From contig JAGWSR010000104.1 in assembly GCA_028869385.1 (NCBI GenBank), positions 1 through 64,000 on the forward strand: a DNA stretch of 64,000 bases. Direction: 5' to 3'. Both the position numbers and the translations under genes were made by a program. The notes under the pieces are model-generated. The model made no database searches and was not told the origin of the DNA. It saw only the letters and a list, made by a program, of their open reading frames with translations. Positions 33,160 through 42,449 of the stretch are shown in pieces; position 1 is the first letter of the stretch; each line of letters opens with the position of its first letter. Source of the DNA: a bacterium. Its GTDB lineage: Bacteria; Vulcanimicrobiota; Vulcanimicrobiia; Vulcanimicrobiales; Vulcanimicrobiaceae.

Positions 33160-33549
33160 TTACGCTTCGAGCAGCGCGACGGGATACTGCAGGTTCATCG
33201 GATCGCGCGTGATGAACGTCAGTCCCTCGAGCTGCGCCTGAGCGATCATGATCCGATCGAACGGATCGGCATGAATGCGCGGAAGCGCCCTCGTCGCGAG
33301 CGCGTGTAGCGCGTCGATCGCCAGCACGTCGAAACCCAGGGAACGGACGCGGCTCGGAAACCACGTCGCGGGGTCCCCGGGAATGACGAGTTTTCCGAGC
33401 GCCGTCTTGATGGAAATCTCCCAAGCGGCCGCGGCCGAGACGAAGATGTCGTTGCTACGATCTTCGATCGCTCGGAGCGCCGGTGCCGCGAGGTGCTCCG
33501 GCGCGCTCGCGGCCCAAAGAAAGACGTGCGTGTCGAGGAGCGCTTTCAC
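33160..33549 (-). CDS. PIN-domain toxin (VapC-like)
   Basis: A 129-residue PIN ribonuclease. The acidic residues of the active site are present: LLDTHVFLW (Asp 6), AAAWEISIK (Glu near 44), and HADPFDRIMIAQA with Asp near 94 and 98, then FITRD. VapC toxins cut tRNA or rRNA to halt growth. GTG start overlapping the antitoxin stop as GTGA, giving the usual antitoxin-first order. Confidence 0.88.
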   Translation of the reverse strand: MKALLDTHVFLWAASAPEHLAAPALRAIEDRSNDIFVSAAAAWEISIKTALGKLVIPGDPATWFPSRVRSLGFDVLAIDALHALATRALPRIHADPFDRIMIAQAQLEGLTFITRDPMNLQYPVALLEA

Positions 33550-33785
33550 GGCGCGACTTCAAAGAGCGCCGCAATCTCCGGGTTGACGGCGTCGAAGTCT
33601 GGCGCGATCGTAATCAACCCGCGATCGCTGCCCAGCGAGCGCCGCGGCGGCGATCCAAGTGGAACGATGCGCGCCGCGGCTCGGCCGCCAATGCAAACGA
33701 CGACCTCCGGCTCCACACCCGAACTGACCTCGCGCACGAGGGCGGAGAGATTCGTCTTCGCCTCGTGCATCTTGACGATCTTCAT
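33546..33785 (-). CDS. Phd/YefM-family antitoxin
   Basis: A 79-residue antitoxin: MKIVKMHEAKTNLSALVREVSSG is the Phd/YefM DNA-binding fold, and the C-terminal 35 residues (after PPRRSLGSDRG) would wrap the toxin. The start is the ATG at 33785; upstream in-frame sequence belongs to the TetR region. It should bind both the toxin and the operator just upstream. A -10-like TAGACT ends seven bases before the ATG. Confidence 0.88.
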   Translation of the reverse strand: MKIVKMHEAKTNLSALVREVSSGVEPEVVVCIGGRAAARIVPLGSPPRRSLGSDRGLITIAPDFDAVNPEIAALFEVAP

Positions 33786-33792
33786 GCGCCTT

Positions 33793-33811
33793 AGTCTACA
33801 AGACTTAGTCT
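33793..33811 (-). promoter_or_regulatory. Palindromic operator of the toxin-antitoxin pair
   Basis: Three alternating five-base half-sites, AGTCT-ACA-AGACT-T-AGTCT, form two overlapping palindromes that share the middle half-site. They start seven bases before the antitoxin ATG and overlap the likely -10 box (TAGACT), the expected layout for autorepression by an antitoxin-toxin complex. Confidence 0.6.
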
Positions 33812-33817
33812 GCTCCG

Positions 33818-34459
33818 TCAAAGCGGCTCGACGCGCAGGTACCCGAGGAACAGGCGGGCGAGCTCCTTCTGCATGGCGTCGTCGTCGAGCGGCATCGCCG
33901 AGCGCCACAACGAGATCTGGTCGAGCGCGACCGACTCGGCGATGTTCGCGATGGCGAGCGTTGCGAACGTCACCGCACGCAGCGGCTGCGGATCGGCGAT
34001 CTCCGCGGCGAAGCGCGAAGCGATCGCCTCGGCAATAACGCGCACGTTCACGCCCATCAGCGCGAGCGCGCGCTCAACAAACGCCGCATCGCCATCGCTC
34101 TCGCCGAAGCGAACCAGAGCGCGGATGAGCCCGGGGCGCGCCCGGTACTGCGCGATCAGCGAGCGCGCCAAGGCGTGCGCCACCCACTCGAGCGAGCGTC
34201 CTTCGAACTGCTTGGCAACGGCGGCGGCATTCGCGACGTTCGAACGCTCGAGCTCGTCGAGCAACGCGGCCCGTATCAACGCGTCCTTGTCGGTGAAGCG
34301 CCGGTAGACGCTCGCGGGAGCGACGCCCGCCTCGTGGGCGATTCGAGGAATCGTCGCCCCCTCCAGGCCTTGTGCTTCGAGGACCGCGACGGTCGCCTTC
34401 AGGAGGCGCGTCAGCGTCTCGCGACTGCGCTGCTGCTTGGGCTCGATTCGGTCGCTCAC
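33818..34459 (-). CDS. TetR-family repressor
   Basis: A 213-residue TetR-type regulator: RIEPKQQRSRETLTRLLKAT leads into the helix-turn-helix (ATIPRIAHEAGVAPASVYRRFTDKDALIRA, about residues 35-65). The C-terminal ligand domain is not assignable. GTG start at 34459: in-frame sequence further up is the shadow of the MFS gene. It is divergent from the MFS transporter over 57 bases containing a large palindrome, so it should repress both genes and respond to a compound the transporter exports. Confidence 0.88.
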   Translation of the reverse strand: MSDRIEPKQQRSRETLTRLLKATVAVLEAQGLEGATIPRIAHEAGVAPASVYRRFTDKDALIRAALLDELERSNVANAAAVAKQFEGRSLEWVAHALARSLIAQYRARPGLIRALVRFGESDGDAAFVERALALMGVNVRVIAEAIASRFAAEIADPQPLRAVTFATLAIANIAESVALDQISLWRSAMPLDDDAMQKELARLFLGYLRVEPL

Positions 34460-34519: not shown

Positions 34520-35710
34520 AAAATCCTCCGCAACCGGTCGCTCGCCCTCCTCGCCGCCGGGGGCACGATCTCCCAGCTCGGCGACGTCTGCTTCATGATC
34601 GCGCTGCCCTGGCTCGTGCTCCAGATGACCGGATCGAGCATCGCCCTCGGCTCCGTGCTGCTCGCGCTCGCCATCCCGCGCGCGGCGCTCATGCTCTTTG
34701 GCGGGGTGCTGAGCGACCGCTTCGCCGCGCGCAACGTGCTGCTCGTCACGAACCTCGCGCTGATGCTCTGCGTCGCATCGCTCGCGCTGCTCGCCTTCGC
34801 CCACGTGCTCGCGCTCTGGATGCTCTACGTGCTCGCCGTCATCTTCGGCACCGCCGACGCGTTCGCGGCTCCGGCGCTCAAAGCCATGCTTCCCGCGCTC
34901 GTCGCGCCGGACGAGATTCAACCGGCGAACGCGTTGCTGCAGTCGCTCGCACAGCTCTGCCTGCTCGTTGGTGCCGCGCTCGCGGGCGTGCTGATCGCGC
35001 GCTTCGGACTCGAGATCACCTTCGTCATCGACGCCTTCAGCTTTGGGTTTCTCATCGCCGCGCTCGCAGCGATGCGCGTTCCCACGGGGGCGCGCGTCGC
35101 CGCGGGCAGCGCGCTCTCGGCGATCGCGGGCGGCATCGCCTACGTGCTTGCGGATCGCAAGCTATGCACGCTGATCGTCATCCTCACCGCCGTCAATGCG
35201 TGCCTCACCGGAGCGACGCAGGTGGGCATCACCGCGCTCGTCCACGCGCGCTTTCACTCGGCGGGAGATTTCGGTGCGCTGGTGAGCGCGAGCGCGACCG
35301 GTTCGCTGGTCGGCATCGTGCTGGCCGGGGCGTGGAAAGCACGCGGCGACGCCATCGCAACCGTGCTCGGTGCGGCGGGTCTCCTCGGCGCCTGCATCGC
35401 GACGCTCGCGCTTCCGCTCGCGTTCGTCGGTTTCTTCGCCGTGCTCGTCCTCGCGGGTGCGATCGCCGGATACGTGAACGTCGTGGTGATCTCGGCGCTC
35501 CAACGCACGATTCTTCCCGAAATGCGGGGCCGTGCGATGAGTCTGGTCGCACTCGCATCGGTCGGGATCGCGCCATTCTCGCTCGCGATCGGCGGCGCGA
35601 TCGCACAGGCGAGCGTCGGCGCGCTCATGCTCGGCTCGGGGTGCGCGCTCGTCCTCGTCGCGGCGGCGGGAGGCGCGCTCGCGCGTCAGCCCGCGACGAA
35701 CGCGCGGTAA
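34517..35710 (+). CDS. MFS transporter (efflux type)
   Basis: A 397-residue transporter with about twelve hydrophobic segments. The loop after helix 2 (GGVLSDRFAARN) is the MFS signature A, and the fold is closest in style to the bacterial MFS efflux families (EntS/Bcr-like). Substrate unknown; the divergent TetR repressor suggests a drug or metabolite exporter. The start codon overlaps the operator and lacks a ribosome binding site. The last 25 bases overlap the photolyase gene tail to tail. Confidence 0.88.
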   Translation: MKILRNRSLALLAAGGTISQLGDVCFMIALPWLVLQMTGSSIALGSVLLALAIPRAALMLFGGVLSDRFAARNVLLVTNLALMLCVASLALLAFAHVLALWMLYVLAVIFGTADAFAAPALKAMLPALVAPDEIQPANALLQSLAQLCLLVGAALAGVLIARFGLEITFVIDAFSFGFLIAALAAMRVPTGARVAAGSALSAIAGGIAYVLADRKLCTLIVILTAVNACLTGATQVGITALVHARFHSAGDFGALVSASATGSLVGIVLAGAWKARGDAIATVLGAAGLLGACIATLALPLAFVGFFAVLVLAGAIAGYVNVVVISALQRTILPEMRGRAMSLVALASVGIAPFSLAIGGAIAQASVGALMLGSGCALVLVAAAGGALARQPATNAR

Positions 35711-37113
35711 CGCGCGAGGAACGCACGCGCGACCGCATCGTGATCGACGACCGGTTGCGGATAGGATTCGGTCGCGAAGAGCGCGAGCGAGAGCTGCGCG
35801 TCGTGCGCGCGGAGACCGTTCCACGCCGCCACCGGCACGTGCGCGAGTTCGTGTACGTACCGCTTGACGTAGAGACCGCTCGGGTCGATGCGACGGCGCT
35901 GCTTTTCGGGGTTGAAGATCCGCGGATACTGCACGAGATCCGCGCCGACGCCGGCGATCCATTGCCAGTTGCCGCTCGCGAGCGCCGGATCGTCTTCGAT
36001 CAAATACCGATCCCACTCGTCGCGTCCGACGCGCCAATCGACGCCGAGGTCGAAGCAGAGAAACGATGCCGCGATCGCGCGGACCTGCGGGTGCATCCAC
36101 CCCGTCTCGCGCAGTTGGCGTATACCCGCGTCGACGAGGGGAAACCCGGTCTGACCCGCGCGCCACGCGTCGAGCGCGGCGTGCGTGCGCGAGAACGGGA
36201 ACGCGCGCATCTTCTCCTGCAGCGCCTGCTCGCCGCTCTCGGGATGGAAGTATCCCAGCTGTAAAAAGAAATCGCGCATCGCGAGCGAGCGCAGATACCG
36301 TCGTAGGCTCGCGCGCTCCTCGCTCAGCAGAAAGGGATCCTCGATGCGCTCGAGCGTCGCGCGCACCGCGCCGCGCGCCGAGATCGCGCCGAACGACAGG
36401 TGCGCCGAGAGGTGCGACGTACCGTCGTCGCTCGGCACGTTCGCGCCGGCCGCATATTGCAGCGCGGCCCCCTGCAGAAAGTGCGCGAGCGCCGCGCGCG
36501 CCGCACTCGGCCCCGCATCGCACGCGCGGTCGGGCGCGCCGAATTCGTTCGGCTGCGGCAGCGGCTCGCTCTGCAAATCGCTCGCTGCGAAACGCACGAG
36601 CAGCGGCGCGTCGTACGTCGGCACGGCGAGCGTGCGCCACACCTCGAAGTACGGTGCGAAGGCGCGGTAGCCGTTGCCGCCGCTCGGACGCGCAGCCGCA
36701 CTCTCTTCGGGCGCGATCGCGGGCGCATCGTGCACGACGAGGGCACGCAGTCCCGCCTCTTCGAGTTCGGAGCGCAGGCGCTCGTCGGCATGCGCGCCCG
36801 CGGCGTCGTAGCTCGCGCTCCACGCGACGCCGCGCGCGGCGCATGCGCGCGCGAGATGCTTGAGCACGGCGCCCGGCGCTCCGCGCCGCACGAGCAGATG
36901 CGAGCCGCGCTCGCGAAGCGCGCGATCGAGCGCGTCGAGCGCCGCGCAGAGGTAGGCGGCGCGGCGAGGCGCATGCGCGAGACGCGCTTCGAGCGCCCGG
37001 TCGACGATGAAGACGGGCAGCACGTCGCCGTGGGCGGCGGCCTGCGCGAGCCCCGCGTGATCCTCGATCCGCAGGTCGCGCGTAAACCGGTAGATACACG
37101 TGCCGCTCGTCAC
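35686..37113 (-). CDS. Cryptochrome/photolyase-family flavoprotein
   Basis: A 475-residue protein with an N-terminal antenna domain (GTCIYRFTRDLRIEDHAGL at the start; DVLPVFIVDRALEARL) and a C-terminal FAD domain (RRYLRSLAMRDFFLQLGYFHP, TGFPLVDAGIRQL, WQWIAGVGADLVQYPRIFNPEKQ). Photolyases use light and FADH- to repair UV dimers. The conserved MHNR of CPD photolyases reads MHPQ here, which may change substrate. GTG start at 37113, just before the first conserved strand; sequence upstream is a shadow of the cytochrome gene. Confidence 0.88.
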   Translation of the reverse strand: MTSGTCIYRFTRDLRIEDHAGLAQAAAHGDVLPVFIVDRALEARLAHAPRRAAYLCAALDALDRALRERGSHLLVRRGAPGAVLKHLARACAARGVAWSASYDAAGAHADERLRSELEEAGLRALVVHDAPAIAPEESAAARPSGGNGYRAFAPYFEVWRTLAVPTYDAPLLVRFAASDLQSEPLPQPNEFGAPDRACDAGPSAARAALAHFLQGAALQYAAGANVPSDDGTSHLSAHLSFGAISARGAVRATLERIEDPFLLSEERASLRRYLRSLAMRDFFLQLGYFHPESGEQALQEKMRAFPFSRTHAALDAWRAGQTGFPLVDAGIRQLRETGWMHPQVRAIAASFLCFDLGVDWRVGRDEWDRYLIEDDPALASGNWQWIAGVGADLVQYPRIFNPEKQRRRIDPSGLYVKRYVHELAHVPVAAWNGLRAHDAQLSLALFATESYPQPVVDHDAVARAFLARYRAFVAG

Positions 37114-37123
37114 GCTTGCGCCC

Positions 37124-37480
37124 TCACAAGCGCTCGACGTACGCCGCGAGGTCGGCGACGTCTTGGGCCGAGAGCACGCCCGGAAAGAGCTTGGGCATCG
37201 GCGGATCGGGGTTCTCGAGAATCGCGACCACCGCGCCGAGCGCCTTGCGCGTGTGCTCCCCTTGGAGCGTCGGCCCCAACTGACCGCCGCCGCCGCGCGC
37301 GCCGTGACAGGCCGCGCACTGCTGCGCGTAGAGCGTGGCGCCTCGCCCGGCGCTCGCGTTGGACGGCGTCGGGACGGCATCGTCGTATGCTGCGACCGCG
37401 GCGGCCGGACGATGGTGCGCGCAGCCGGCGAGCGCCGCGAGGAACACTAGTATTGCGAGCGAGCAAGAGCGACGATCCAT
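37124..37480 (-). CDS. Lipoprotein cytochrome c
   Basis: A 118-residue class I cytochrome c. A lipobox LAGC (Cys 20) closes the signal peptide, so it is anchored to a membrane by lipid. The haem site is CAACH (55-59) and the Met ligand is probably Met 95 in PPMPKL. An electron carrier in the periplasm. It lies ten bases before the photolyase gene on the same strand and is probably cotranscribed with it, but no functional tie is known. Its partners (oxidase or dehydrogenase) are outside the window. Confidence 0.9.
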   Translation of the reverse strand: MDRRSCSLAILVFLAALAGCAHHRPAAAVAAYDDAVPTPSNASAGRGATLYAQQCAACHGARGGGGQLGPTLQGEHTRKALGAVVAILENPDPPMPKLFPGVLSAQDVADLAAYVERL

Positions 37481-38040: not shown

Positions 38041-39057
38041 TCAGCGCTGAGGAATCGCCGGCCCGTCGTCCTGCGACTGCGAGCGGAACGTGAACGCGTC
38101 ACGATAGACGCCCGGCGTCGCGCGCCCGTTGACGGTGCGCGGCACGTAGCGCGCGTGCATCGCGGCGGCGCAGACCGCGCCGTCGAGCGAAAAGTATCCC
38201 GATGACTTCGTGATCGTGCAATGCTGCGGGGCACCGTGCTCGTCCACCGTCACCTCGAACGCCGTCGTGCCCTCGGCACCCTCGGCATAGGCGATGAGCG
38301 GCGGACGCGGGCTGATCGCTCCGTCGCCGCCGAGCGGCGTCACGTCGTGTACCACGTACACGGGCGCGACCGCAATAGACTCCGCGCGCCCCGCGAAGAG
38401 CGGCGCGTGCGTCGCGTTCGCGACCGGCATCGCCGCGTCGCGGCGCCAGATCGGCACGTTGGACGGCGCGCTCGTCGCCATGGCGACCACGCTGCGGGTC
38501 GAGATTCGCGTCTCGGTGGCCGACGCCGGACCGCGAGCGGCCTTGACGTTCGCCGGTGTCGAGGCCTTGAGCGCGATCACGTTGTGCACCACGACGAGGC
38601 TCTCGGAGACCGCACGAACCGGCGGCGCCGCCGCGACGCTCTTCGGTGCAGGGGTGCGCTGGTCGAGCGTCACGTGCATGCCCGAGACGGGGAGTACCGG
38701 CACGACGCTCGCATCGGCGATGCGTACCGTCGGCACGGCGGCCGCAAGCAGCACGTGGAGTCCGAGCGACGCGACGATCGCGAGTGCCACCCCGGAGAGT
38801 CCCACCCGCCAGGCGCTGCGCGCGAGGCGCGTGCGCCGGTCGCGCGCGCTCGGCACGATGGGCTCCCAGGTTTCGGCATCGCGGGCATCGGCCACGGCGC
38901 TCATCACGCGTTCGATCTCACGCTCGCCGCCGAGCGCGCGAAGGCACGGCGCGCAAGCCGCGATGTGGCGCCGGTACTCGTCGCGTTCGGCGTCGCTCGC
39001 CTCGCCGAGGGCGATGGCCCCCGCAAGACTCTCGACGCGCGCGCAGGTTGGGTTCAC
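38041..39057 (-). CDS. Anti-sigma factor fused to TonB C-terminal domain
   Basis: A 338-residue protein. Residues 25-40 carry a zinc-binding anti-sigma motif (His 31, Cys 35, Cys 38: HIAACAPC); residues about 86-108 are a membrane helix; the last 80 residues match the TonB C-terminal domain (AFEVTVDEHGAPQHCTITKSSGYFSLD, then ARYVPRTVNGR). The anti-sigma part would hold the adjacent ECF factor at the membrane, and the TonB part would lie in the periplasm. This fusion is uncommon. GTG start at 39057 overlapping the sigma gene as GTGA; upstream in-frame sequence is a shadow. Confidence 0.8.
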   Translation of the reverse strand: MNPTCARVESLAGAIALGEASDAERDEYRRHIAACAPCLRALGGEREIERVMSAVADARDAETWEPIVPSARDRRTRLARSAWRVGLSGVALAIVASLGLHVLLAAAVPTVRIADASVVPVLPVSGMHVTLDQRTPAPKSVAAAPPVRAVSESLVVVHNVIALKASTPANVKAARGPASATETRISTRSVVAMATSAPSNVPIWRRDAAMPVANATHAPLFAGRAESIAVAPVYVVHDVTPLGGDGAISPRPPLIAYAEGAEGTTAFEVTVDEHGAPQHCTITKSSGYFSLDGAVCAAAMHARYVPRTVNGRATPGVYRDAFTFRSQSQDDGPAIPQR

Positions 39058-39578
39058 GATCTCTCCGTCATCACCGTTCGCAGCGTCTTCATCGCTCGAC
39101 AGACGCGTTGACGTACCGCGTCGGCCGAGGTTCCGAGGATCGCCGCAGCTTCGTGCGAGGTATAGCCCGCATAACTCGTCAGCAGCATCGCGGCCGACTG
39201 ATCGGCGGGAAGGCGCGCGAGCGCCGCCTGCAGATCGAGCGACGCCGCGCTCTGTTCGTCGATGCGCCACGAACGGACGTCGTGCTCGCGATCCAGCGGC
39301 AACATGCGAATGATCTTCTTGCGCCGCAGATACGAGATCGCGCTGTTCGTCGCGGTCTTGTAGAGCCATCCGGCCGTGAGCGGGCGTTCGGGATCGTGCT
39401 GCAGCGTACGGAACGCGGCGAAGAGCACGTCTTGCGTGAGATCGAGCGCGACCTCGCTATCCCCGACCATGCGACGGAGATACCGTGCGAGCTTCGTCTG
39501 ATACTCGCGCGCTAGCGCCTCGACCCGTACTTGGGCCCCCGACTCGGCCGACCCGGCCGTGAGGTAGACCTCCTCCAT
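39054..39578 (-). CDS. ECF-type RNA polymerase sigma factor
   Basis: A 174-residue sigma-70 ECF factor: region 2 (ARYLRRMVGDSEVALDLTQDVLFAAFRTL, then GWLYKTATNSAISYLRRKK) and region 4 (LARLPADQSAAMLLTSYAGYTSHEAAAILGTSADAVRQRVCRAMKTLR). Expected to direct transcription of a small regulon when released by the fused anti-sigma factor. AGGAGG lies before the ATG. Its targets cannot be read from this window. The 59 bases upstream hold no clear autoregulatory promoter. Confidence 0.92.
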   Translation of the reverse strand: MEEVYLTAGSAESGAQVRVEALAREYQTKLARYLRRMVGDSEVALDLTQDVLFAAFRTLQHDPERPLTAGWLYKTATNSAISYLRRKKIIRMLPLDREHDVRSWRIDEQSAASLDLQAALARLPADQSAAMLLTSYAGYTSHEAAAILGTSADAVRQRVCRAMKTLRTVMTERS

Positions 39579-39637
39579 CCGTGGTCCCTCCTCTTCTTGT
39601 GCGCTGCTAACGCTCGAACTTCGTCGGCTGTGACGCC

Positions 39638-40651
39638 CTATCCGCCGATTTCCGAAAACGCCCGCATTCGCGACGAGGCCTCGCCCAGGCGGAGGTGGTG
39701 GCGCTCGGGCTTGATCGCCATCGAGGCGCGAAAGATGTCCGCCAGCTCCTCACTCGTCGCTCCCGCGCGCAGCGGCGTTCGCAGATCGAGGTGCTGATCG
39801 CCGAAGAGGCAGAGCCGCAGTCGTCCGTCGGCGGTGAGGCGCACGCGATTGCAGCGCTCGCAGTAATCGTGCGAGAGCGGACTGATGACCCCGACGGCTC
39901 CCGGCGCTCCCGCGAAGCTAAAGTAGCGCGCCGGCCCGTTGCCCGGCGGTCCCGCGACCGGCGAGATCTCACCGATCTCGGCGACGCGTTCGAGAATCTC
40001 GTCGGAAGAGACGTAGGCGTCGCGCTGCAGCTCGAGATTCTCGTGGACCGGCATCACCTCGATGAAGCGCACGAAGACGGCGCGCGCGCGGGTGAGCTCG
40101 GCGAAGGCGGCGATCTCGTCGTCGTTTTGGCCGCGCATCACGACGCAGTTGAGCTTGAGCGGCGCGAGTCCGGCGGCGAGCGCCGCGTCGATGCCGCGCA
40201 GCACGCGGTCGAGTCCCGGCCGACGAGCGATCGCCTCGAAACGATCCTCGCGCAGCGTGTCGAGCGAGACGTTCACGCGCCGCAAACCCGCATCGAGCAG
40301 CGCTGGAAGCTGCTCTTCGAGCAGTACCGCGTTGGTGGAGAGCGCGATATCTTCGATGCCCGGCACGGCGGCGATGCCGGCGATCAGTCGATGCAGGTCG
40401 CGGCGCACGAGCGGTTCGCCGCCGGTGATGCGAATCGTGCGCACGCCGACGCTCGCCGCGGCGCGCACGATCTCGACGATCTCTTCGTACCGCAGCAGTT
40501 CCTCGCGCCGCAGCCAGTCGAGCCCCGACTCGGGCATGCAGTACACGCAGCGGAGATTGCATTTATCGGTGACGGAGACGCGCAGATAGGTGATCGGACG
40601 GTCGAAGGCATCCGCCAGCAGTGCGCGCGTGAGATCGACGACCGTGCTCAT
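39638..40651 (-). CDS. moaA: GTP 3',8-cyclase
   Basis: A 337-residue radical SAM enzyme, first step of molybdopterin synthesis: GTP to 3',8-cH2GTP. The SAM cluster is CNLRCVYC (Cys 31, 35, 38); the second cluster is CERCNRVRLTADGRLRLC near residue 265; and the chain ends with the essential GG. Overlaps the upstream LolA-like gene as ATGA. Last gene of the molybdenum-cofactor operon. No moaC is in the window. Confidence 0.96.
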   Translation of the reverse strand: MSTVVDLTRALLADAFDRPITYLRVSVTDKCNLRCVYCMPESGLDWLRREELLRYEEIVEIVRAAASVGVRTIRITGGEPLVRRDLHRLIAGIAAVPGIEDIALSTNAVLLEEQLPALLDAGLRRVNVSLDTLREDRFEAIARRPGLDRVLRGIDAALAAGLAPLKLNCVVMRGQNDDEIAAFAELTRARAVFVRFIEVMPVHENLELQRDAYVSSDEILERVAEIGEISPVAGPPGNGPARYFSFAGAPGAVGVISPLSHDYCERCNRVRLTADGRLRLCLFGDQHLDLRTPLRAGATSEELADIFRASMAIKPERHHLRLGEASSRMRAFSEIGG

Positions 40652-41277
40652 CGCGGCGCGTCGAAGACCGTATCCGAGATCGGCGCGTTGATCTTGTAAT
40701 CACTCAACGTCGAGGTGATGTCGCCGGTGTAGCCGGGTTCCTGCACGTGACCCGTCTGCGCGACGACGACGCTGTTTCCCTGGACGACGCCGTAGGTATC
40801 GTTCATCTCCGCGTAGCCGCCGTTCTCGTAGTTCCAGCGCATCGAGCGGATCGTCGCCGTCGCGTCGTCCACGCGAACGTCGATGCGCGCCACGTTGCCG
40901 CGCTTGCGCGGCACGAGCGCGAAGGTCGTCGTGCCGTTCTCGTCGCTCGTCTGCGTCACCGCGAAGAGACTCGGCCAGAGCACCGGCGGCTCGATGTGCG
41001 CGTAGAGCGAGCTGAAGGCCTTGGCCTTCATCGGCAGCCCGCTCGTGATCTCGAGCTTGCTGCGATCGGGCGATTTGAAGTAGTACGTGCCTGCGAGATC
41101 GGTCGCGAGGAACGGAAAGCTGCGAAGCGCGACGTGCGCGTGCATCGTCGCGGTGTAGCTGCGGAGTCCCGGGTTGAGCGCCGCCATGCGCGCGAGCAGG
41201 TCGTCGCCCGCCTGCGTGGGCAACGGGTGAACGGCGGCGAGCGCGACGGCGGCGAGCGATGCGAAGAGTCGTTTCAT
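40648..41277 (-). CDS. LolA-like outer-membrane lipoprotein carrier protein
   Basis: A 209-residue secreted protein with a signal peptide (cleavage near TQAG, about residue 23) and a LolA/DUF4292-like beta fold (LNPGLRSYTATMHAHVALRSFP, AGTYYFKSPDRSKLEI). LolA shuttles lipoproteins across the periplasm. Its place between queG and moaA, with four-base overlaps on both sides, has no obvious link to cofactor synthesis. The ATG at 41277 opens the signal peptide. Confidence 0.65.
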   Translation of the reverse strand: MKRLFASLAAVALAAVHPLPTQAGDDLLARMAALNPGLRSYTATMHAHVALRSFPFLATDLAGTYYFKSPDRSKLEITSGLPMKAKAFSSLYAHIEPPVLWPSLFAVTQTSDENGTTTFALVPRKRGNVARIDVRVDDATATIRSMRWNYENGGYAEMNDTYGVVQGNSVVVAQTGHVQEPGYTGDITSTLSDYKINAPISDTVFDAPR

Positions 41278-42449
41278 ACTGCTTGAGACGAACGCGCCGC
41301 CGGACTCTGTTGTTCCAACGCCGCGTCGATCTCTTCCAGAACCCCGCGATCCCCCTCGCCGTTGCGTGCCGCCTCGAGCGCCGCGCGGGCACGCGGCGAG
41401 CCGATGCGTCCGAGGGCCCACGCGGCGGCCCCGCGTACCATCGCGTGCGGGTCGCTGCCGAGCGCGTCGGCGAGCGCGCCGACGGTGCTGCGGTCGAGCG
41501 CGTTTCCGAGCGCGATCGCCGCGTTACGACGCAGGACGGCCGCACCGCGCCACCCCATCGCCGTTCGCGCGTAGCGACGTTTGAACTCACCGCTGCGCAG
41601 CGCGAGGAGCGCGACGAGCGACGGCGTCGCCACGACGTCGTCGAACGGCGCGAAGGCATCGCTCGCGACCGCCCCGGCGTTGCGCGTCGGCGGGCAGGCG
41701 TCTTGGCAGAGATCGCACCCCCACACCCACGTGCCGACGTACGGACGCAGCTCGCGCGGAAGCGGATCGGTGCGCTGCGTGAGATCGGCGATGCAGCGCC
41801 CGGCGTCGATCGTGTAATCTCCGCGCAGCGCGCCCGTCGGACAGGCGCTCACGCACGCGGAGCACGAGCCGCACGACTTGCGCAGCGGCAGGTCGGGTTC
41901 GAGCGCGAGCGACGTGACGATCTCGCCGAGAAAGACGTACGATCCGGCACCCGGCACGATGAGATTCGTATGCTTGCCGATCCATCCGAGCCCCGCGCGC
42001 GCCGCAAACGCGCGCTCGGCGAGCGGCTTGGTATCGCACGCGATCGCGGTCACCGGCGCGCCGGCGGCCGCATCGATCTCCGCGGCGACCTCGCGCAAGA
42101 GCGCCCGCAGGCGATGGTGGTAATCCGCGGACCAAGCGTAGTTGGAGACGCGTCCGCGCAGCGCCGCTCCGCGAGCGGGCGGGGGCGTCGCATACGGAAC
42201 GGCGATCGCGATGACGCTGCGCGCATCGTCGAGAATCGCCCGCGGATCGCTCGCGACGCGTGCGTAGCCGTCGTCGTATCCCCACGTCTCGAAATCGCCG
42301 CGCGCGAAGCTCGCGCGCATGCGTTCGCGCGTCGCGGCATCGGGCGCGGCGGCGCTGATCCGAACCGCGACGGCACCGCGCGCACGCGCCGCCTCCAGCG
42401 CGCGCGCTTTGATCGCGGCGAGTTCAGAGCGTGGCGAGCGGTCCGTCAT
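41274..42449 (-). CDS. queG: Epoxyqueuosine reductase
   Basis: A 391-residue iron-sulfur/cobalamin enzyme for the last step of queuosine synthesis in tRNA. WSADYHHRLRALL is a family hallmark, and two ferredoxin-type clusters follow: CGSCSACVSACPTGAL and CDLCQDACP. The C-terminal 100 residues are HEAT-like repeats (AVLRRNAAIALGNALD, MVRGAAAWALGRIGS), common in QueG. It overlaps the aldo/keto reductase by 26 bases, so the exact start could be further in. Confidence 0.92.
   Translation of the reverse strand: MTDRSPRSELAAIKARALEAARARGAVAVRISAAAPDAATRERMRASFARGDFETWGYDDGYARVASDPRAILDDARSVIAIAVPYATPPPARGAALRGRVSNYAWSADYHHRLRALLREVAAEIDAAAGAPVTAIACDTKPLAERAFAARAGLGWIGKHTNLIVPGAGSYVFLGEIVTSLALEPDLPLRKSCGSCSACVSACPTGALRGDYTIDAGRCIADLTQRTDPLPRELRPYVGTWVWGCDLCQDACPPTRNAGAVASDAFAPFDDVVATPSLVALLALRSGEFKRRYARTAMGWRGAAVLRRNAAIALGNALDRSTVGALADALGSDPHAMVRGAAAWALGRIGSPRARAALEAARNGEGDRGVLEEIDAALEQQSPAARSSQAV

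Follow-up and report, generated by a model that had tools for sequence, protein, structure and literature searches.

Anti-sigma factors carry many kinds of sensor domain, and a TonB C-terminal domain (TonB_C) would add one able in principle to feel the outer membrane. The gene at 38041-39057 on the reverse strand of the window, the whole 64,000-nucleotide stretch of DNA analysed here, raises the question of whether such a sensor exists. An earlier note proposed that this gene fuses a zinc-type anti-sigma factor to TonB_C and that the fusion could sense an outer-membrane or periplasmic state directly.

The fusion protein and its operon

The features of the sigma/anti-sigma pair and the neighbouring photolyase are listed below, with the basis for each in brackets.

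38041..39057 (-): 338-aa membrane anti-sigma factor with a C-terminal TonB_C domain (translation, profiles, model, fold search)
38944..39045 (-): zinc anti-sigma domain (zf-HC2, HIAACAPC), residues 5-38 (Pfam)
38734..38802 (-): membrane helix, residues about 86-108 (sequence and AlphaFold model)
38755..38769 (-): SLGLH (S97, H101), SxxxH as in TonB membrane helices (motif comparison)
38086..38301 (-): TonB_C domain, residues 253-324 (Pfam, model, fold search)
38170..38220 (-): C280-x15-C296 pair within TonB_C (ortholog comparison)
39054..39578 (-): cognate ECF sigma factor, 174 aa (Pfam)
35686..37380 (-): DNA photolyase, same strand and downstream of the pair, with an uncertain start codon (linkage at many orthologous loci)

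Profile searches of the two halves bore out the description of a zinc motif, a membrane helix and a TonB-type C-terminus in a single protein. The N-terminal part matched zf-HC2 at 22.7 bits, 0.5 bit over the Pfam cut-off of 22.2, and the C-terminal part does score as TonB_C, at 42.7 bits against a cut-off of 24.6. Consistent with this finding, the NCBIfam model TIGR01352 (tonB_Cterm) gave 34.9 bits (cut-off 27.1), and Pfam at E up to 1 returned no domain in the protein beyond these two. HIAACAPC follows the pattern HxxxCxxC (H31, C35, C38), which is unchanged across 31 aligned orthologs. An AlphaFold model of the protein (7 sequences) had a mean pLDDT of only 48.9, with about 64-76 in the TonB_C part, and displayed, in order, an anti-sigma helical bundle, a helix at 71-106 and a beta-beta-alpha-beta arrangement at 263-328. 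When Foldseek was run against the PDB, the top eight matches were all C-terminal domains of TonB or TonB homologues (best E 1.7e-3), and an RsiW anti-sigma chain ranked 46 with an E of 2.1. The fusion of zf-HC2, membrane helix and TonB_C in one protein is confirmed as real. Because an Arg-rich stretch precedes the membrane helix, the anti-sigma N-terminus would be cytoplasmic.

The partner protein matched Sigma70_r2 (50.2 bits) and Sigma70_r4_2 (47.7 bits), both above the Pfam cut-off, and with regions 2 and 4 only in 174 aa it qualifies as an ECF sigma factor. The two genes share the sequence GTGA (39057-39054), as the earlier note had observed: the anti-sigma GTG start at 39057-39055 overlaps the sigma stop TGA at 39056-39054. 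In every ortholog examined for coupling, the sigma frame overlaps or adjoins the anti-sigma gene. By motif and gene layout the protein is a ZAS anti-sigma factor, with inhibition of sigma as its predicted activity.

Orthologous loci have in common a neighbourhood made up of queG, a secreted-type frame without a name, moaA, the sigma/anti-sigma pair and photolyase. Wherever the photolyase could be placed (42 of 42 loci), it is encoded downstream of the pair on the same strand; in the clade with a cut TonB_C (see below) the distance is often no more than 64 nt. The window's photolyase is separated from the anti-sigma gene by a GNAT gene on the opposite strand. The frame at 40648-41421(-) of the window, a neighbour of moaA and the sigma pair at most related loci, encodes a secreted-type protein that is LolA/RseB-like by eye; searches of Pfam, NCBIfam and PDB sequences returned no match to it. 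Two overlapping small frames, 33160-33549(-) and 33546-33908(-), resemble by eye a PIN-type toxin and antitoxin.

Three C-terminal states at one syntenic place

The fusion recurs in relatives, and the sigma/anti-sigma pair keeps a single syntenic position across a clade of Candidatus Eremiobacterota, the phylum to which the window probably belongs. Some match to the anti-sigma protein was present in 81 of 148 relatives, many to TonB_C alone, and the whole-domain fusion was found in 32 of the 148: 30 loci (L001 and L003-L031, of which L013 ends at a contig end) together with G015 and G051, the latter broken by an assembly gap. The addition of L038 brings the whole-domain orthologs to 33; L038 and L039 belong to the ortholog set and come from a separate contig database outside the 148 genomes. 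A sigma ortholog, scoring at least 161 bits, was detected in 45 of 110 relatives, and the next match, at 57 bits, lay across a sharp gap.

At this one locus, TonB_C is whole in 33 orthologs, cut in 11 and lacking in 10 counted; L083, also without TonB_C, is an eleventh domain-less case outside that count. In the cut form the domain ends after its helix, without its last (third) strand, and 10 of the 11 examples come from genus g36. We read the cut forms as truncations because they are nested inside the whole-domain group in the trees (17-row branch, support 99/96 and 99/95). The clade without TonB_C stands apart, in trees whose long outgroup branches make the root between it and the rest unsafe. 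No second fusion outside the orthogroup appeared among the matches listed (41 genomes, inspected by eye), a plasmid search with the whole anti-sigma protein gave 0 matches, and PHROGs held no match for the anti-sigma factor. The literature searched, with most subscription papers outside it, described no zinc anti-sigma/TonB_C fusion. The pairing of a zinc anti-sigma factor with TonB_C is a conserved, fairly unusual variant, real in many related bacteria.

Mean pairwise identity among 31 whole-domain orthologs (L013 and L037 omitted) was 0.67 for TonB_C (465 pairs), 0.57 for the anti-sigma domain, 0.32 for the linker and 0.29 for the helix. Because TonB_C is the best conserved part, these values support selection on the arm, which is predicted to face outward. 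The C-x15-C pair was present in 33/33 whole and 11/11 cut domains and in 0/15 TonB cores that a regular expression extracted from 30 TonB_C loci within the phylum. However, two of three Sphingomonadales TonB-family plasmid proteins examined have the same pair, so it is not peculiar to the fusion and its role may be structural only.

Promoter and candidate regulon

A promoter was predicted upstream of the sigma gene by ortholog comparison.

39609..39634 (-): GTCACA-N16-CGTT, predicted promoter 30 nt upstream of the ATG of sigma (ortholog comparison)

GTCAC[A/G] followed by CGTT lies upstream of sigma in 51 of 52 orthologs, with a spacing of 16 in 49 and 15 in 2. The sole exception among the 52 upstream regions, a set that leaves aside L081 and L082, is a contig end. 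With one mismatch allowed, the window held 2 promoter matches against 2.88 expected by chance, and its only exact match was the sigma promoter. In the whole genome, exact GTCACA-N16-CGTT occurred 3 times and the reversed control 0 times. Each of the 3 lies ahead of a gene: one ahead of sigma, one ahead of the gene for a 477-aa DUF4139 protein and one ahead of that for a 117-aa secreted protein. In the last two the ATG is 9 nt beyond CGTT, the arrangement of leaderless genes. The 117-aa protein had a weak carboxypeptidase-regulatory-like match, below the cut-off.

Sigma targets were listed by motif, a check suggested in the earlier note, under a strict geometry (ATG 6-11 nt downstream of the site) across 40 genomes, 30 with sigma and 10 without. 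Sigma-bearing genomes held 24 of the 26 sites, spread over 13 of the 30, and the 10 sigma-less genomes held 2, one followed by a 19-aa frame and the other by a 2-aa frame. The remaining 17 sigma-bearing genomes were without a site in this geometry, outside which sigma's own promoter falls. Three recurring families account for 14 of the 24 sites: the DUF4139 protein (T1, 2 sites), the 117-aa protein (T2, 5 sites) and a DoxX-like membrane protein (T3, 7 sites; DoxX exceeded its cut-off in one of three T3 proteins tested). In 5/5 genomes the 117-aa gene is followed after 8-56 nt by fpg, which encodes a glycosylase for oxidised purines that acts in DNA-oxidation repair, and in one genome a promoter site lies 20 nt before a redoxin. 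The photolyase had no promoter site of its own, either in the window or in any of the 44 related loci that were scanned. Looser promoter patterns were rejected: they returned mostly chance sites, and one gave about equal numbers in sigma-less and sigma-bearing genomes.

Several smaller observations concern the target genes. At L197 (G000:C102), upstream of the DUF4139 gene, and at L190 (G002:C35), GTCACA lies within an inverted repeat, GTCACA..TGTGAC, and such a site may be a CRP-type operator in addition to, or in place of, a sigma promoter. The 117-aa protein has two conserved cysteines, and in five genomes (L282, L284-L287) its gene, with the candidate sigma promoter in front, precedes fpg and rpsA; polA and DUF192 are found upstream of it in the four of these where the sequence extends far enough.

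The locus amounts to a natural experiment: in a fixed position, one gene is found with TonB_C whole, cut or absent and with a readable promoter, which allows domain loss to be set against helix-motif loss and against the regulon.

A candidate mechanism and its rivals

We consider it rather probable that the locus encodes an autoregulated ECF sigma factor and a membrane-anchored zinc anti-sigma factor whose periplasmic sensor derives from TonB, and that the system answers oxidative or envelope stress. Computation supplies the domain layout, the autoregulatory promoter and the list of targets in this model; inhibition, signal and release we infer. In the resting cell, the zf-HC2 domain would tether sigma to the membrane. 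Once a signal from the periplasm acted on the TonB_C arm, the anti-sigma factor would change or be destabilised and release sigma, which would then drive the GTCACA-N16-CGTT promoters of its own operon, of the secreted small protein with fpg and of the DUF4139 protein and, in other genera, of DoxX-like membrane proteins as well. The handful of predicted targets points to oxidative or photo-oxidative envelope stress as the most likely signal, perhaps read by the C280/C296 pair. The case for the pair as sensor is weakened because its presence in Sphingomonadales proteins may mean a purely structural role. The TonB_C arm, with its helix motif, probably descended from a TonB protein and would serve as a sensor rather than a transport driver.

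How far this sensing extends to the outer membrane bears on the central proposal of the earlier note, which stands in part. The conserved TonB_C arm, predicted to face outward, the ExbB and TonB-dependent receptors of the genome and the frequent SxxxH motif are in keeping with direct sensing. Against it, no receptor was found among the compared neighbours or the predicted sigma targets, and the 11 cut forms are without the strand that pairs with TonB boxes; in the FhuA-TonB structure, the receptor's TonB box adds to the third strand of the E. coli TonB C-terminal domain (PMC11658791). The loss of this strand in the cut domains, which kept the rest, speaks against an essential role for receptor sensing; that the arm directly senses receptors in the outer membrane is a possibility, as yet unproven.

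A bolder alternative holds that the protein is a TonB with an anti-sigma head. Its SxxxH helix would dock on ExbB/ExbD, its TonB_C would reach TonB-dependent receptors, and receptor load or proton-motive force would be reported directly to sigma. We judge this unlikely, although the helix lends it substance. A histidine at the TonB position ([S/A]xxxH) occurs in 25 of 32 whole-domain orthologs (19 SxxxH, 6 AxxxH) and in 0/21 cut or domain-less ones, of which the domain-less have mostly SxxxN; L037, with an assembly gap over the helix, falls outside these counts. SxxxH was present in 0/30 other zf-HC2 proteins of relatives and in 23/25 TonB-type proteins from the phylum (25 of 30 loci scored), with SxxxN in 2/30 and 2/25. 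In E. coli TonB, S16 and H20 of the SHLS motif matter for function and the motif is needed for contact with ExbB (PMC8928145). ExbB was found in 139 of 148 relatives and receptors in 129. However, the histidine is absent from 7 of the 32 whole-domain orthologs, and in a correlated-evolution test its association with the whole domain came down to 2-3 independent contrasts, too few to give the test any power, and was not significant. The L and S of SHLS are unmatched, and the linker shows no strong proline enrichment, with a count by eye of about 14 Pro over 139 residues. The cut clade lost both strand 3 and the motif, yet persists. Receptor and exbB/exbD genes are absent from the named conserved neighbours; the genome's best ExbB match is on contig C65, near other TonB_C genes. 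The helix comparison suggests descent from, or convergence on, the TonB helix, with coupling to ExbB unproven. An extended version, in which a complete TonB was given an anti-sigma head that linked the ExbBD motor and receptors to transcription without a FecA/FecR relay, and one sublineage was later cut to a redox-type cysteine module, strikes us as decidedly unlikely. As a separate observation, TonB proteins of the window's own genus (L080 4915-5640(+), L126) carry SxxxN in the membrane helix, in place of the SxxxH seen in the phylum's other TonBs.

The sensor could also lie on the cytoplasmic side. Redox sensing could fall to the zf-HC2 cysteines rather than to the arm, after the model of RslA, and in the fullest form of this idea the zinc site (ZAS) would be oxidised as in RslA or RsrA while the TonB_C arm served as a membrane or cell-wall anchor with little sensing role, an account we place on the unlikely side. 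It draws on the invariance of HxxxCxxC and on the 10 TonB_C-less orthologs, which keep the neighbourhood and, in 8 of 8 examined upstream, the promoter. According to PMC2877774, anti-sigma factors with HxxxCxxC respond to oxidants, but the ChrR zinc site is thought to be structural rather than sensing. Moreover, TonB_C is conserved to a greater degree than an anchor would need. The same conservation, above that of the anti-sigma domain, makes it highly improbable that the arm is an evolutionary relic or neutral decoration under loss: the nested cut forms and the clade without the domain fit such decay, but all 11 cut forms still keep C-x15-C.

Several known systems resemble the one that we favour, a zinc anti-sigma factor with a TonB-derived sensor arm. 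FecR/PupR-type regulators are likewise membrane anti-sigma factors beside an ECF sigma gene, with a periplasmic arm and a link to the Ton world, but here Pfam found no FecR domain match and the anti-sigma domain is of the zinc type. The FecR/PupR arm meets the signalling domain of a receptor, whereas here the arm carries TonB_C and no receptor gene lies among the named neighbours. M. tuberculosis RslA also has an HxxxCxxC anti-sigma domain in a membrane-associated protein; the TonB_C arm and TonB-like helix motif set the present protein apart. TonB energy transducers share the TonB_C fold, the single helix and, in most, SxxxH, but not the anti-sigma head, the translational overlap with a sigma gene or the loss of the C-terminal strand in one clade; exbB/exbD, their characteristic neighbours, are missing from those named here. 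VreA of P. aeruginosa brings a TolA/TonB C-terminal-like domain into ECF signalling, as a separate protein with an STN domain rather than within the anti-sigma factor itself (PMC2729926). RpoE-ChrR (ECF11) likewise pairs a ZAS anti-sigma factor bearing an added sensor domain with an oxidative response (PMC6852236). ChrR is cytoplasmic and its added domain is cupin-like, and Pfam found no cupin in the window protein. The promoter motif of RpoE-ChrR differs from the one here, and its targets include a photolyase.
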